64,000 nt of DNA from Flavobacteriales bacterium. Its GTDB lineage: Bacteria; Bacteroidota; Bacteroidia; NS11-12g; UBA955. Shown piece by piece: positions 6,768 through 55,675 of this stretch (its first letter is position 1; the number at the start of each line of letters is the position of its first letter). The translations under genes were made by a program, and so were the position numbers. Below the pieces are notes generated by a model, which did no database searches, was not told the origin of the DNA, and saw nothing but the letters and a program-made list of their open reading frames with translations. The stretch covers positions 62,001-126,000 of the forward strand of contig CANHQZ010000001.1 of assembly GCA_947463125.1 (NCBI GenBank). Reading direction: 5' to 3'.

Positions 6768-6778
6768 ACCCTTCATTG

Positions 6779-6824
6779 AATTTAACAGAAAAAGCAGGCA
6801 AACGCCTGCTTTTTCTGTTAAATT
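6779..6824 (+). terminator. Perfect 21-bp stem, 4-nt loop hairpin downstream of the PKD protein
   Basis: AATTTAACAGAAAAAGCAGGC-AAAC-GCCTGCTTTTTCTGTTAAATT. Confidence 0.85.
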
Positions 6825-6871
6825 AGCGTAAATAATGTGATATATATCGCTTTTATTCGTTTTATTAGCAG

Positions 6872-6879
6872 TAATTTTG
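6872..6879 (+). promoter_or_regulatory. Bacteroidota -7 promoter element TAATTTTG upstream of universal stress protein
   Basis: Matches TAnnTTTG, 20 nt before ATG at 6899. Confidence 0.5.
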
Positions 6880-6898
6880 CATCATCAATACACACGCT

Positions 6899-23815: not shown

Positions 23816-25222
23816 TCAAAGGGTTTTCACTTCGTTCACCAGCTTCTGCAGACTGTCTTTGGCATCACCAAAGAGCATTCCGCACTTGCTGTTGTAGAAC
23901 AATTCATTTTCAATTCCTGCATAGCCTGATTTCATGCTGCGCTTAAGCACCACAATCTGCTTGGCATTTTCCACATCCAGGATAGGCATGCCGTAAATTG
24001 GGCTGGCGGGATCGGTTTTGGCCGCAGGATTCACCACATCATTGGCCCCAACTACCAGCACCACGTCTGTGGTAGCAAATTCAGGGTTGATATGTTCCAT
24101 TTCAACGAGTTTATCGTAGCTGACATTGCTCTCTGCCAGCAACACATTCATATGACCCGGCATACGTCCGGCAACAGGATGAATGGCGTATTTCACCTCT
24201 ACCCCTTCCGCTTCCAGCAGGCCTTCCAGTTCATGCACCACATGCTGTGCCTGTGCTACCGCCAGGCCATATCCGGGCACTACGATTACCTTTTGGGCAT
24301 ACTTCATCAGAATAGCCACATCGGTTGCCTGCACTTCGCGCACGGTACCACCTGATTTACCTGAGGGGGCAACAGCACCTGAACTGCCACCTACCGCGCC
24401 AATCAGCACGTTGGTCAAACTGCGGTTCATGGCTTTACACATCACAATAGTGAGAATGGTACCGGCAGAACCCACAAGTACACCGCCCATCAGCATTACA
24501 TTGTTGTGGTATAAAAATCCGCCGCAGGCAGCAGCCACACCGGTGAATGAATTCAGCAATGAAATCACCACAGGCATATCGGCTCCGCCGATAGGAAACA
24601 CAAATAACAAACCATAAACAGATGCCAGTATGATTACCAAATAAAAATACAGCATGTTGCCATCTGCTGCGGCACCGAAGTTCATCCATGCGGTTCCTGC
24701 AATGGCAATTAGCATGATGATATTGATAAACTGCTGGCCGGGAAAATGAAAATCACCCAGTTTACCACTGAGTTTGCCCCAGGCCACAATGCTTCCCACA
24801 AATGATACTGTACCAATAATTAAACCTGCAATAATGGCAAGGTATTCCCCTGTGGGCATGGTAGCAATGGAATCTCCCTTAAACTTCCATTCCAGCAAGG
24901 AAATAAGGGCAGCACACAAACCACCCATTCCGTTAAACAAAGAAACCATTTCGGGCATTGCCGTCATTTGTACACGCTTGGCCATAAGCCAGCCCACCAG
25001 GGTTCCAACGCCAATAGCAGCAGCTATCAGGCCGGCATTGTTCACAATATGAATGCCTTCTTCAGCATGCTTGAAAAACATAATTCCCAAAACGGCAAAC
25101 AACATGCCTGCTGCCGCTACCAGATTACCTTTACGGGCGCTATCGGGCTTACCCATCATTTTTAAACCCACTACAAAACCCAGTGAGCCCAGCAGAAACA
25201 GTACTTCCTGAATATGCTTCAT
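23816..25222 (-). CDS. pntB: NAD(P) transhydrogenase subunit beta
   Basis: YAQKVIVVPGYGLAVAQAQHVVHEL, HPVAGRMPGHMNVLLAESNVSYD, NPAAKTDPASPIYGMPILDV. Confidence 0.96.
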   Translation of the reverse strand: MKHIQEVLFLLGSLGFVVGLKMMGKPDSARKGNLVAAAGMLFAVLGIMFFKHAEEGIHIVNNAGLIAAAIGVGTLVGWLMAKRVQMTAMPEMVSLFNGMGGLCAALISLLEWKFKGDSIATMPTGEYLAIIAGLIIGTVSFVGSIVAWGKLSGKLGDFHFPGQQFINIIMLIAIAGTAWMNFGAAADGNMLYFYLVIILASVYGLLFVFPIGGADMPVVISLLNSFTGVAAACGGFLYHNNVMLMGGVLVGSAGTILTIVMCKAMNRSLTNVLIGAVGGSSGAVAPSGKSGGTVREVQATDVAILMKYAQKVIVVPGYGLAVAQAQHVVHELEGLLEAEGVEVKYAIHPVAGRMPGHMNVLLAESNVSYDKLVEMEHINPEFATTDVVLVVGANDVVNPAAKTDPASPIYGMPILDVENAKQIVVLKRSMKSGYAGIENELFYNSKCGMLFGDAKDSLQKLVNEVKTL

Positions 25223-25545
25223 GACTTGGCTCCTTTCCCTGGCTTCTTCTTAAACATTTCCAGCATGCGATCTGTCACCACAAATCCACCGATAACATTC
25301 AGGGTTCCTACAATCACACCCACAAAACCCACCACCAGACTGAACATATCATCTTCGGCAGCGTGACCCATCACATAAATTGCGCCAATCAATACAACTC
25401 CGTGAATGGCATTGGCACCGCTCATGAGTGGCGTATGAAGCACGCTGGGTACATGCCCGATTAATTCAATACCCACAAAAACCATGAGTATTACCAAATA
25501 TATCATGGAGATATTTTCTCCGATGAAGTTAAATATTGTGTCCAT
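25219..25545 (-). CDS. pntAB: NAD(P) transhydrogenase subunit alpha part 2 (membrane domain)
   Basis: LVILMVFVGIELIGHVPSVLHTPLMSGANAIHGVVLIGAI. Confidence 0.93.
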   Translation of the reverse strand: MDTIFNFIGENISMIYLVILMVFVGIELIGHVPSVLHTPLMSGANAIHGVVLIGAIYVMGHAAEDDMFSLVVGFVGVIVGTLNVIGGFVVTDRMLEMFKKKPGKGAKS

Positions 25546-25569
25546 TTGTTGTTTGTTAATTGTTTATTG

Positions 25570-25588
25570 GTTTAATAGTTTATTTATT
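25570..25588. repeat. Left arm of imperfect inverted repeat flanking the four-helix-bundle ORF
   Basis: GTTTAATAGTTTATTTATT; 17/19 match to the reverse complement of 26077-26095. Confidence 0.65.
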
Positions 25589-25609
25589 CTACCTTTTTAC
25601 TTATGATTT

Positions 25610-26059
25610 TCATTTATCATAATGCTGATTTTGATTGTCAGCTAATCTCTTTTTTAAATATTTAACATTTCCATTTAATAATAGAATGCTATCATTGATA
25701 TCCAAATTAAATTTCTTTAATTGTTCTGAAGAAATATAACTTTCATCCTTTGCTGTAATGAGATGGTCATATAACTCTACAAGGGAACCACGGGCATGAA
25801 TGCAAAACCTGATTTGATCTTTGAAATGAAACCGACCATAACCCTCCGCAATATTGGCAGTAACAGATCTGGAAGACCTGATGATTTGATCTGACAGACG
25901 ATAACGCTCTGATTCCGGAAAAGATTTTATTAACTCTGATACTTTCTTTTTTAATTCATGTGCTGATTTCCAGCAAGTTAAATTCTGAAAATCTGACCAT
26001 CCATAATTGACAACCGACTCTGCAACTAAATAACTATTCATATATAAATTTTTAAACAT
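25610..26059 (-). CDS. Four helix bundle protein (S23 / 23S rRNA intervening-sequence family)
   Basis: LTCWKSAHELKKKVSELIKSFPESERYRLSDQIIRSSRSVTANIAEGYGRFHFKDQIRFCIHARGSLVELYDHLITA. Confidence 0.93.
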   Translation of the reverse strand: MFKNLYMNSYLVAESVVNYGWSDFQNLTCWKSAHELKKKVSELIKSFPESERYRLSDQIIRSSRSVTANIAEGYGRFHFKDQIRFCIHARGSLVELYDHLITAKDESYISSEQLKKFNLDINDSILLLNGNVKYLKKRLADNQNQHYDK

Positions 26060-26076
26060 ACACTTTTAAACAATTA

Positions 26077-26095
26077 AACAAATAAACCATTAAAC
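26077..26095. repeat. Right arm of imperfect inverted repeat, overlapping the pntAA stop codon
   Basis: AACAAATAAACCATTAAAC (reverse complement GTTTAATGGTTTATTTGTT). Confidence 0.65.
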
Positions 26096-27193
26096 GCCAT
26101 GGAGAACTTTTCCCTCATGACAGATTAAACATCCCGCCACTATCTCATCCGCAAGATCCAAAACCAACTCCGATTTCGGGGCAATCAGCTTCATCAATTC
26201 CACGAGGTTTTTTGCGAATAATTCACTGGCGTTAATGGGCAATTCAGCGGCCATATTGCCTGCTCCTACGATGCGAACTCCATTCTGATCTACTACCTCA
26301 TAAGGCTTGGTGTAAACACAGTTACCTCCCTGTTCGGCGGCCATATCAATCAATACAGACCCGGGCTTCATCATACCTACCTGTTCTTCGTCAACCAGAA
26401 TCGGTGCTTTGCGTCCGGGGACCAACGCAGTGGTGATAACCAAATCAGCCTGTGCTAAGGATTTATTAACAGCTTCACGCTGTTTTGCGCGGTACTCTTC
26501 AGTTGCTTCCTTGGCATAACCTCCTTCTGAGCCTACTTCTGCACCTTTAACTTCAATAAACTTACCTCCCAAAGATTCTACCTGCTCTTTGGTTTCGGGG
26601 CGAACATCCGTGGCTTCCACAACGGCACCCAGTCTTTTTGCGGTAGCAATGGCCTGTAATCCAGCAACGCCTACTCCAAAAATCAAAACGCGGGCCGGGG
26701 TGATGGTTCCGGCGGCTGTCATCAGTAAAGGGAAAATCTTGTCCAAATGACCTGCCCCTTTGATCACTGCCATATAGCCTGCCAGGTTGGATTGTGAACT
26801 GAGTACATCCATCGCCTGCGCCCTGGAAATACGCGGTATTGCATCCAATGAAATGGCGGATATCTTTTTTGCGTTTAGTGCAGAAACCATATCGGAATTG
26901 CTGCGGTGATAGAGCAAACTGCAAAGAAGACAACCTTCCGGCAGGGCAGTGATTTCCTCTGCTGTTGGCGGATTAATTTTCATAACAATCCGCGCACCTG
27001 CGAGTACATCTTTTTGGCTGCCAACAGAGGCACCGGCATCTGTGTATTGTTGGTCGCTGAACCAGCTGCCTGTGCCGGCCCCTGTTTCAACAGAAACTTC
27101 CAAACCTTGCTTAACCCAGGCGGCTGCCACCTGGGGCGAAACGGCAACCCTGTGCTCACGCTCGCGGGTTTCTTTTATTATTGCTATCTTCAC
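26090..27193 (-). CDS. pntAA: NAD(P) transhydrogenase subunit alpha part 1 (NAD-binding)
   Basis: MKIAIIKETREREHRVAVSPQVAAAWVKQGLEVSVETGAG...VLIFGVGVAGLQAIATAKRLGAVVEATDVRPETKEQVESLGGKF. Confidence 0.95.
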   Translation of the reverse strand: MKIAIIKETREREHRVAVSPQVAAAWVKQGLEVSVETGAGTGSWFSDQQYTDAGASVGSQKDVLAGARIVMKINPPTAEEITALPEGCLLCSLLYHRSNSDMVSALNAKKISAISLDAIPRISRAQAMDVLSSQSNLAGYMAVIKGAGHLDKIFPLLMTAAGTITPARVLIFGVGVAGLQAIATAKRLGAVVEATDVRPETKEQVESLGGKFIEVKGAEVGSEGGYAKEATEEYRAKQREAVNKSLAQADLVITTALVPGRKAPILVDEEQVGMMKPGSVLIDMAAEQGGNCVYTKPYEVVDQNGVRIVGAGNMAAELPINASELFAKNLVELMKLIAPKSELVLDLADEIVAGCLICHEGKVLHGV

Positions 27194-55587: not shown

Positions 55588-55612
55588 TTCCAAACCGGAT
55601 TTTTCAGAACAA

Positions 55613-55644
55613 TTTGGAAATCCGATAAAAATCGCCTATATTTG
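55613..55644 (+). promoter_or_regulatory. Near-consensus Bacteroidota promoter upstream of dprA (TTTG-N20-TATATTTG)
   Basis: TTTG 55613-55616, TATATTTG 55637-55644. Confidence 0.65.
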
Positions 55645-55654
55645 GAAATATAGG
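55635..55654. promoter_or_regulatory. Perfect 20-bp palindrome, candidate operator upstream of dprA
   Basis: CCTATATTT-GG-AAATATAGG; overlaps the -7 element. Confidence 0.6.
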
Positions 55655-55675
55655 TTTGTTAATATTTTTATCATT

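Follow-up and report, generated by a model that had tools for sequence, protein, structure and literature searches.

The insertion site in the pnt operon

The window analysed here is a stretch of 64,000 nucleotides from a Flavobacteriales genome (assembly GCA_947463125.1; hereafter G000, 2.34 Mb and 98.9% complete), and it carries the pnt operon on its minus strand. The upstream host gene, pntAA, encodes the NAD(P) transhydrogenase alpha subunit part 1 (26090..27193; Pfam AlaDh_PNT_N and AlaDh_PNT_C), and downstream of it lie pntAB (25219..25545; PNTB_4TM) and pntB (23816..25222; PNTB), which completes the operon. Between pntAA and pntAB, and not within a 23S rRNA gene, sits a gene of the IVP/S23 four-helix-bundle family, also on the minus strand (25610..26059; 149 aa, or 143 aa from an alternative in-frame ATG at 26041). 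Profile matches and the sequence itself confirm the proposal of the first-pass annotation that such a gene is present here and is bracketed by inverted arrays of the word GTTTAWTN.

The upstream (5′) array comprises four units on the coding strand, GTTTAATG GTTTATTT GTTTAATT GTTTAAAA, spanning 26095-26064 on the minus strand, and its first unit contains the pntAA stop codon (TAA, 26092-26090). The downstream (3′) array (25555..25588, plus strand) is its inverted copy, with the units GTTTATTG GTTTAATA GTTTATTT at 25562-25585, one base later than first noted although the arrays themselves are real, and a degenerate unit, G(T)TTAATT, that reaches approximately 25555; about 10 bases separate the end of this array from the pntAB start codon. 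The reported match of 17/19 between the core arms in inverted orientation is exact, and the best inverted alignment of the arrays reaches 24/27, with a score of 21 compared with a maximum of 17 among 300 dinucleotide-preserving shuffles of both flanks. When the sense RNA of the region is folded, the arms pair around the ORF (whole-region z = -2.2), and the ends of the cassette are thus able to pair, as had been suggested. An Rfam search of window positions 25000-26700 gave no match. Elsewhere in the window, intergenic inverted repeats at 6768-6898 and 55588-55675 resemble ordinary terminator-type hairpins, not arrays.

The protein encoded by the window ORF matches PF05635 (1.6e-31, 109 bits against a curated cut-off of 33.8) and TIGR02436, ‘four helix bundle protein’ (4.1e-29, 101 bits against a cut-off of 24). 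Its AlphaFold monomer model (pLDDT 91.9) has the S23 four-helix-bundle fold, without a known catalytic site, and is matched in Foldseek by Xcc0516 (2GSC, target-normalised TM 0.91-0.94), by BT_0352 (2RLD) and, more remotely, by Avd, a protein of diversity-generating retroelements (DGRs; 4DWL and 8UBE, target-normalised TM 0.82-0.88, with 0.83-0.88 for 4DWL; 8-9% identity). Xcc0516 is known to form a homopentameric ring (PMC4990558). PF05635 is the sole profile match of the ORF, with no Y1 (HuH) transposase, and the protein has no match in PHROGs or PADLOC. A search of G000 for the reverse transcriptase profile RVT_1, the controls of which gave their signal, returned no match, so this genome lacks a standard partner of the DGR type.

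Empty sites and the age of the cassette

Comparison of the pntAA-pntAB gap across six congeners, the check that the first-pass annotation had proposed, revealed four empty sites, one occupied site and one that is truncated where a contig ends within an array. In G002, G004, G005 and G006, pntAA and pntAB are contiguous, 28-54 bp apart with no ORF between them, which upholds the view of the cassette as an addition that splits an otherwise contiguous operon; splitting need not amount to breaking, as all reading frames stay in sense. The junction of G001 is occupied by an IVP gene whose product is 78% identical to that of G000, and the G003 contig starts within a AATAAACC array directly before pntAB.

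In a tree built from pntAA, pntAB-pntB and ychF, G000 groups with G002 and G004 (support 99/97), both of which are empty, which implies repeated loss or gain of the cassette. Between G000 and G001, dS is 1.11 for the cassette IVP gene and 0.93 for the host gene pntAB, values that would fit, without proving, one old insertion followed by later losses. The IVP genes are under purifying selection, with pN/pS of 0.10-0.45 in nine pairs. No target duplication and no recent copy of the cassette were found, nor was a direct transposition event. Recent mobility is accordingly not supported, given the purifying selection, the similarity of dS to that of pntAB and the several losses or gains on the tree.

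Inverted flanks around IVP genes

The arrangement at the pnt operon recurs in related genomes. A profile search of G000 and 58 relatives gave 99 IVP matches and 98 usable loci, at each of which the 250-base upstream flank was compared with the reverse-complemented downstream flank of equal length, a score of at least 17 being taken as the cut; this test is blind to the order in which gene and arms arrived. The inverted score of a locus against its own flank has a median of 19, compared with 10 for mismatched pairs, and among the 98 candidate partners the own flank ranks first for 41 loci and within the top three for 66, while comparison in direct orientation gives a much weaker signal. A score of 17 is reached by 67/98 IVP loci (68%), the remaining 32% lying below it, and by 42/64 scored clusters when orthologous loci are grouped. 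Among non-IVP control genes that have 40 or more intergenic bases on each side, a set in which gaps were required on both sides, IVP bodies were removed and gene calling was simple, only 10/284 (3.5%) do so, a difference with a Fisher p of about 2e-39 that is to be read with the loci not being independent, because they were picked by profile score from related genomes. The full set of non-IVP controls gives 19/976. Some loci are, moreover, hidden, because contigs of metagenome-assembled genomes often end in such arrays. The layout is specific to IVP genes, and the word differs at nearly every site. The expectation that arrays would accompany four-helix-bundle genes elsewhere is thus sustained, the link being to locus-specific inverted words and not to GTTTAWTN itself.

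Arms persist around some broken IVP ORFs (in G004 and G041), and an intact local gene is therefore not required at all times. Longer proteins of approximately 190-210 aa partly match the IVP profile below its cut-off (G012:C285, G020:C10, G001:C165, G007:C77 and G028:C75) and may represent a distinct subfamily that lacks arms; the one in G001 scores 9.

The two strongest controls (scores 52 and 46) are Y1/IS200-like transposase genes, of the RAYT type, a class known to carry inverted REP repeats, which surfaced here unsought. Y1/IS200-like genes with strong inverted flanks are found in G043 (L286:10159-10749, just below the Pfam cut-off, and L290:16150-16614), a genome with 11 IVP matches, and these two are probably RAYTs with their own REPs.

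Arm anatomy and joint change of the word

The arms are built on a short period, the dominant lag being 7 in 32 loci, 14 in 10 and 8 in 11. Over 80 loci, the median segment between the arms measures 460 nt and the median arm 35.5 nt, a figure that is suggestive only, because arm length depends on alignment scoring. The upstream arm contains more G than C in 73/78 loci (p = 1.5e-16; mean 24% G and 8% C), and the C-poor strand of the arms faces inward. The words vary by locus and include GTTTAWTN, AGTTTACAG, GAGTACAGA, CGGGTTT, GAATTACG, ATTTGAAAA and GGTAAGTG, among others. A genome-wide word common to the IVP loci of one genome was considered and rejected, word sharing between loci within a genome (3.0%) not being above the background across genomes (1.9%).

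At orthologous sites, the word can change on both sides together, as observed in only some pairs. The site between a glmM-like gene and ychF, where an IVP gene is present in 6/7 congeners, provides an example: both arms carry GAGTTTAG/GAGTTAGG-type words in G003, AGTGTAT-type words in G002 and AGTTTACAG-type words in G000, G005 and G004, and own scores of 18-26 compare with 12-18 across word classes. In a small and non-independent sample of 15 orthologous pairs (protein identity under 80%, and an own score of 17 or more for each member), the own score averages 22.5 and the cross score 18.2, and own exceeds cross both ways in eight.

IVP genes are largely placed in sense within operons. Among the 91 loci with both neighbours called, 59 have the arrangement ++ and 8 the arrangement --, so that the IVP gene is in sense in 59/67 co-directional gaps; the operon gaps that hold it, as read from sequence, include pntAA/pntAB, sdhA/sdhB and thiolase/acyl-CoA dehydrogenase. 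This sense placement, together with the closure of the arms around the ORF in the folded sense RNA of the window, favours the main rival explanation, that of an intervening sequence at the mRNA level, in which the arms would be selected to pair in the transcript and RNase III would cut the stem and remove the IVP segment, so that insertion into an operon would cost nothing. The S23/IVP family is also found in 23S rRNA intervening sequence (IVS) elements, the complementary ends of which are cut by RNase III (PMC4990558), and this precedent speaks for it as well. The arms themselves give it no support. Selection for pairing in sense RNA should put G-U pairs in place of A-C mismatches, but mismatches of the G-U kind number 71 and those of the A-C kind 96, against a composition expectation of 300:327, so that this signature is absent, and sense arm duplexes are no more stable than antisense ones. 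Selection for pairing would also leave the tandem words and the solitary arrays without an IVP gene, described below, unexplained. As G-U is not favoured over A-C, the pairing looks maintained as DNA, which would be the simpler reading and leaves room for a role in RNA. Removal as an mRNA intervening sequence is, on balance, unlikely to be the main account, with perhaps a quarter of our confidence, and it could be true together with the repeat-gene system that we propose below.

Arrays without an IVP gene

In G000, pairs of GTTTAWTN units occur at about 20 other intergenic places without an IVP gene, many of them as inverted pairs. GTTTAWTN triplets number 32 in G000, 1-13 in its congeners and 0-2 in other genera. 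GTTTACR, the word of the G008 IVP gene, has 56 tandem occurrences in G008 and none in 57 other genomes. These two genomes, G000 and G008, are those in which the word of an IVP locus is also dispersed in intergenic space; in the pair G043/G055, words of IVP loci are found at 49 places in their own genome and at 40 in the other, which is not significant, and word dispersal may accordingly not be general.

The G-containing strand points inward from the gene edge in 28/33 GTTTAWTN arrays of G000. Solitary arrays as mere markers of the 3′ ends of convergent genes were considered, which is true of several sites, and the inward C-poor strand is the rule that holds. A reading of solitary arrays as decayed IVP cassettes found no support, the interiors of the C4 arrays being, in congeners, AT-rich and non-coding or, in G004, occupied by an unrelated small ORF. 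The IVP-free GTTTAWTN arrays bracket intergenic regions on contigs C3, C4, C8, C24, C29, C60 and others of G000 (L161-L180), often as inverted pairs 100-430 bp apart and sometimes mixed with CTCTTAACTC, TTCATTCCTTCATTA and ACTGTCAACT arrays. At G004:C48:2060-2960 (L255), a GTTTAWT-bracketed region that is non-coding in G000 holds an unrelated small-lipoprotein-like ORF (MKQSIQKFKATSLFVAIIVSAIGC...). At G008:C2:1-4500 (L277), six GTTTAC arrays of alternating orientation surround an IVP gene (+ - IVP + - ... + -). The assembly breaks at GTTTAC arrays, several contigs of G008 ending in one.

Solitary GTTTAWTN arrays and other heptamer arrays without an IVP gene, together with published heptamer arrays that lack a named gene partner (PMC4679880), might suggest that the repeats arise independently by slippage in these genomes and that IVP genes merely survive where repeats are. 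Set against this are the rarity of tandem period-7 arrays in 144 kb of G000 and the gulf between spaced controls and IVP loci (3.5% vs 68%), and we regard such an origin as improbable.

Dispersal also bears on transposition proper of the RAYT/REPIN-like kind, in which IVP would be a transposase, or an essential partner of one, that mobilises array-ended cassettes, with the solitary arrays as non-autonomous copies. The genome-restricted dispersed words of G000 and G008, some of them in inverted pairs, the empty sites in congeners and the emergence of Y1 transposase genes as the two strongest controls would agree with it. The four-helix bundle with no known catalytic site, the lack of an RVT_1 match in G000, the mostly dissimilar words at the several IVP loci within a genome, and the failure to find a target duplication or recent copy all count against it, and we consider it distinctly unlikely.

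Breadth across taxa

IVP genes are widespread in the phylum, being carried by 116/148 Bacteroidota genomes sampled, and 13 of the 30 best loci phylum-wide reach a score of 17, compared with 1.8% of mismatched pairs. On cyanobacterial and Riemerella plasmids, this score is reached in 9/15 records, or 8/14 distinct loci as two Calothrix plasmid copies are identical, compared with 4.8% of mismatched pairs; the loci concerned include those of Calothrix, Nostoc edaphicum, Geminocystis, Anabaena, Picosynechococcus, Pseudanabaena and Riemerella. Mucilaginibacter also shows the pattern, and a Peregrinibacteria locus scores 16, just under the cut. Within CRISPR operons of plasmids (L250, L326 and L329), IVP genes with inverted heptamer arms are found in the orders cas6-IVP-cas4 (Anabaena and Pseudanabaena) and cas10-IVP-cmr3 (Picosynechococcus). 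A CRISPR association of ‘23S rRNA IVP’ has been listed (PMC10910872) and may correspond to the putative passenger type on these cyanobacterial plasmids.

The range of hosts weighs on the idea that IVP regulates its host operon, with the arms as operator or RNA target. Placement inside operons and purifying selection on the IVP gene would accord with regulation; the host operons, however, are unrelated (pnt, sdh, thiolase/acyl-CoA dehydrogenase, glmM-like/ychF and cas), and empty sites are common, which makes this the least probable of the explanations considered.

Relation to known systems

Cyanobacterial STRR repeats are heptamer arrays and, like the TAACTGA arrays, resemble those described here in being intergenic tandem repeats of a 7-base unit in the same phyla. 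The TAACTGA arrays were described in Beggiatoaceae, Cyanobacteria and Bacteroidetes and, as far as the accessible part of that article goes, are mostly direct repeats with no reported link to IVP (PMC4679880), whereas the IVP arrays are inverted around a gene. The 23S rRNA IVS of Coxiella and Leptospira (PMC4990558) belong with the same protein family and likewise have complementary ends that pair into a stem with the ORF in its loop, but the elements described here lie outside rRNA, in many unrelated operons, and end in tandem arrays of a word proper to each locus. The RAYT/REP-REPIN system (PMC8049555) is comparable in that a gene passed on vertically has its own short repeats, in inverted copies, on either side and, as in G000 and G008, lineage-confined dispersed intergenic copies in inverted pairs; it differs in that the IVP system has no Y1 transposase and consists of heptamer or octamer arrays rather than palindromic REPs, and in that one REP word serves a genome while the IVP word is usually that of a single locus. 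Avd (4DWL, 8UBE) has the same fold as the window IVP, but shares 8-9% identity with it, and the IVP arms are not template and variable repeats, nor does G000 contain an RVT_1 match. Intervening sequences with S23 ORFs, TAACTGA-type heptamer arrays and RAYT/REPIN are thus already known (PMC4990558, PMC4679880, PMC8049555). A search of an open-access library, subscription papers and preprints lying outside it, returned no paper linking orphan IVP genes to inverted heptamer arrays.

A possible resident repeat-gene system

The reading that we tentatively prefer, to which we would give somewhat less than even chances, is that the window contains a single instance of a resident repeat-gene system that occurs widely, resembles RAYT/REP and relies on an Avd-like pentameric protein in place of a transposase. 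Its unit would consist of a sense-oriented IVP gene flanked by operon genes and enclosed by its own inverted array pair, each arm having a few copies of a 7-8-base word and turning its C-poor strand inward. Copying of the DNA would keep the arms alike, through slippage within an arm and hairpin- or conversion-type copying between arms. By homology, IVP may form a homopentameric, Avd-like nucleic-acid-binding ring whose targets would be its own arrays in single-stranded form. Each subunit might then take up approximately one heptamer (5 x 7 = 35, where the median arm has 35.5 nt), a suggestion derived from the length of the repeat unit, that of the arm and the pentamer of a related protein. By analogy with RAYT and its REP/REPIN repeats, IVP might protect, copy or occasionally spread the arrays, any binding to the arrays or copying of them by IVP being inferred. 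In the operon mRNA, the arms could also close a long stem, by which the insert would be set apart and perhaps tolerated. Of this picture, the analysis shows the architecture, its specificity for IVP genes, the word proper to each locus, the sense placement, the joint change of both arms at some orthologous sites, the empty sites and the purifying selection on the protein. Counting against it are word sharing within genomes that hardly exceeds that between genomes, unlike the one word per genome of RAYT/REP, the non-significant dispersal in G043/G055, the 32% of loci below 17, the arms around broken ORFs and a joint word change that is clear in only 8 of 15 orthologous pairs.

A broader generalisation, which we hold possible with more reserve, is that IVP proteins are cognate factors of short tandem (heptamer) arrays across bacterial phyla, a non-transposase ring propagating and homogenising an inverted array pair whose word drifts by locus, in a system that encodes no transposase, integrase or reverse transcriptase.

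Numerous orphan S23/IVP genes carry no functional description beyond ‘four helix bundle’, and no gene has accompanied the descriptions of short heptamer arrays in Bacteroidota and cyanobacteria; the pattern reported here ties these arrays to the orphan IVP family. The link makes it testable whether an IVP protein binds its own word and whether it is the cause of the joint change of the arms. IVP genes within CRISPR or other operons may, in turn, be passengers of a repeat-gene system rather than parts of the operons in which they are found.
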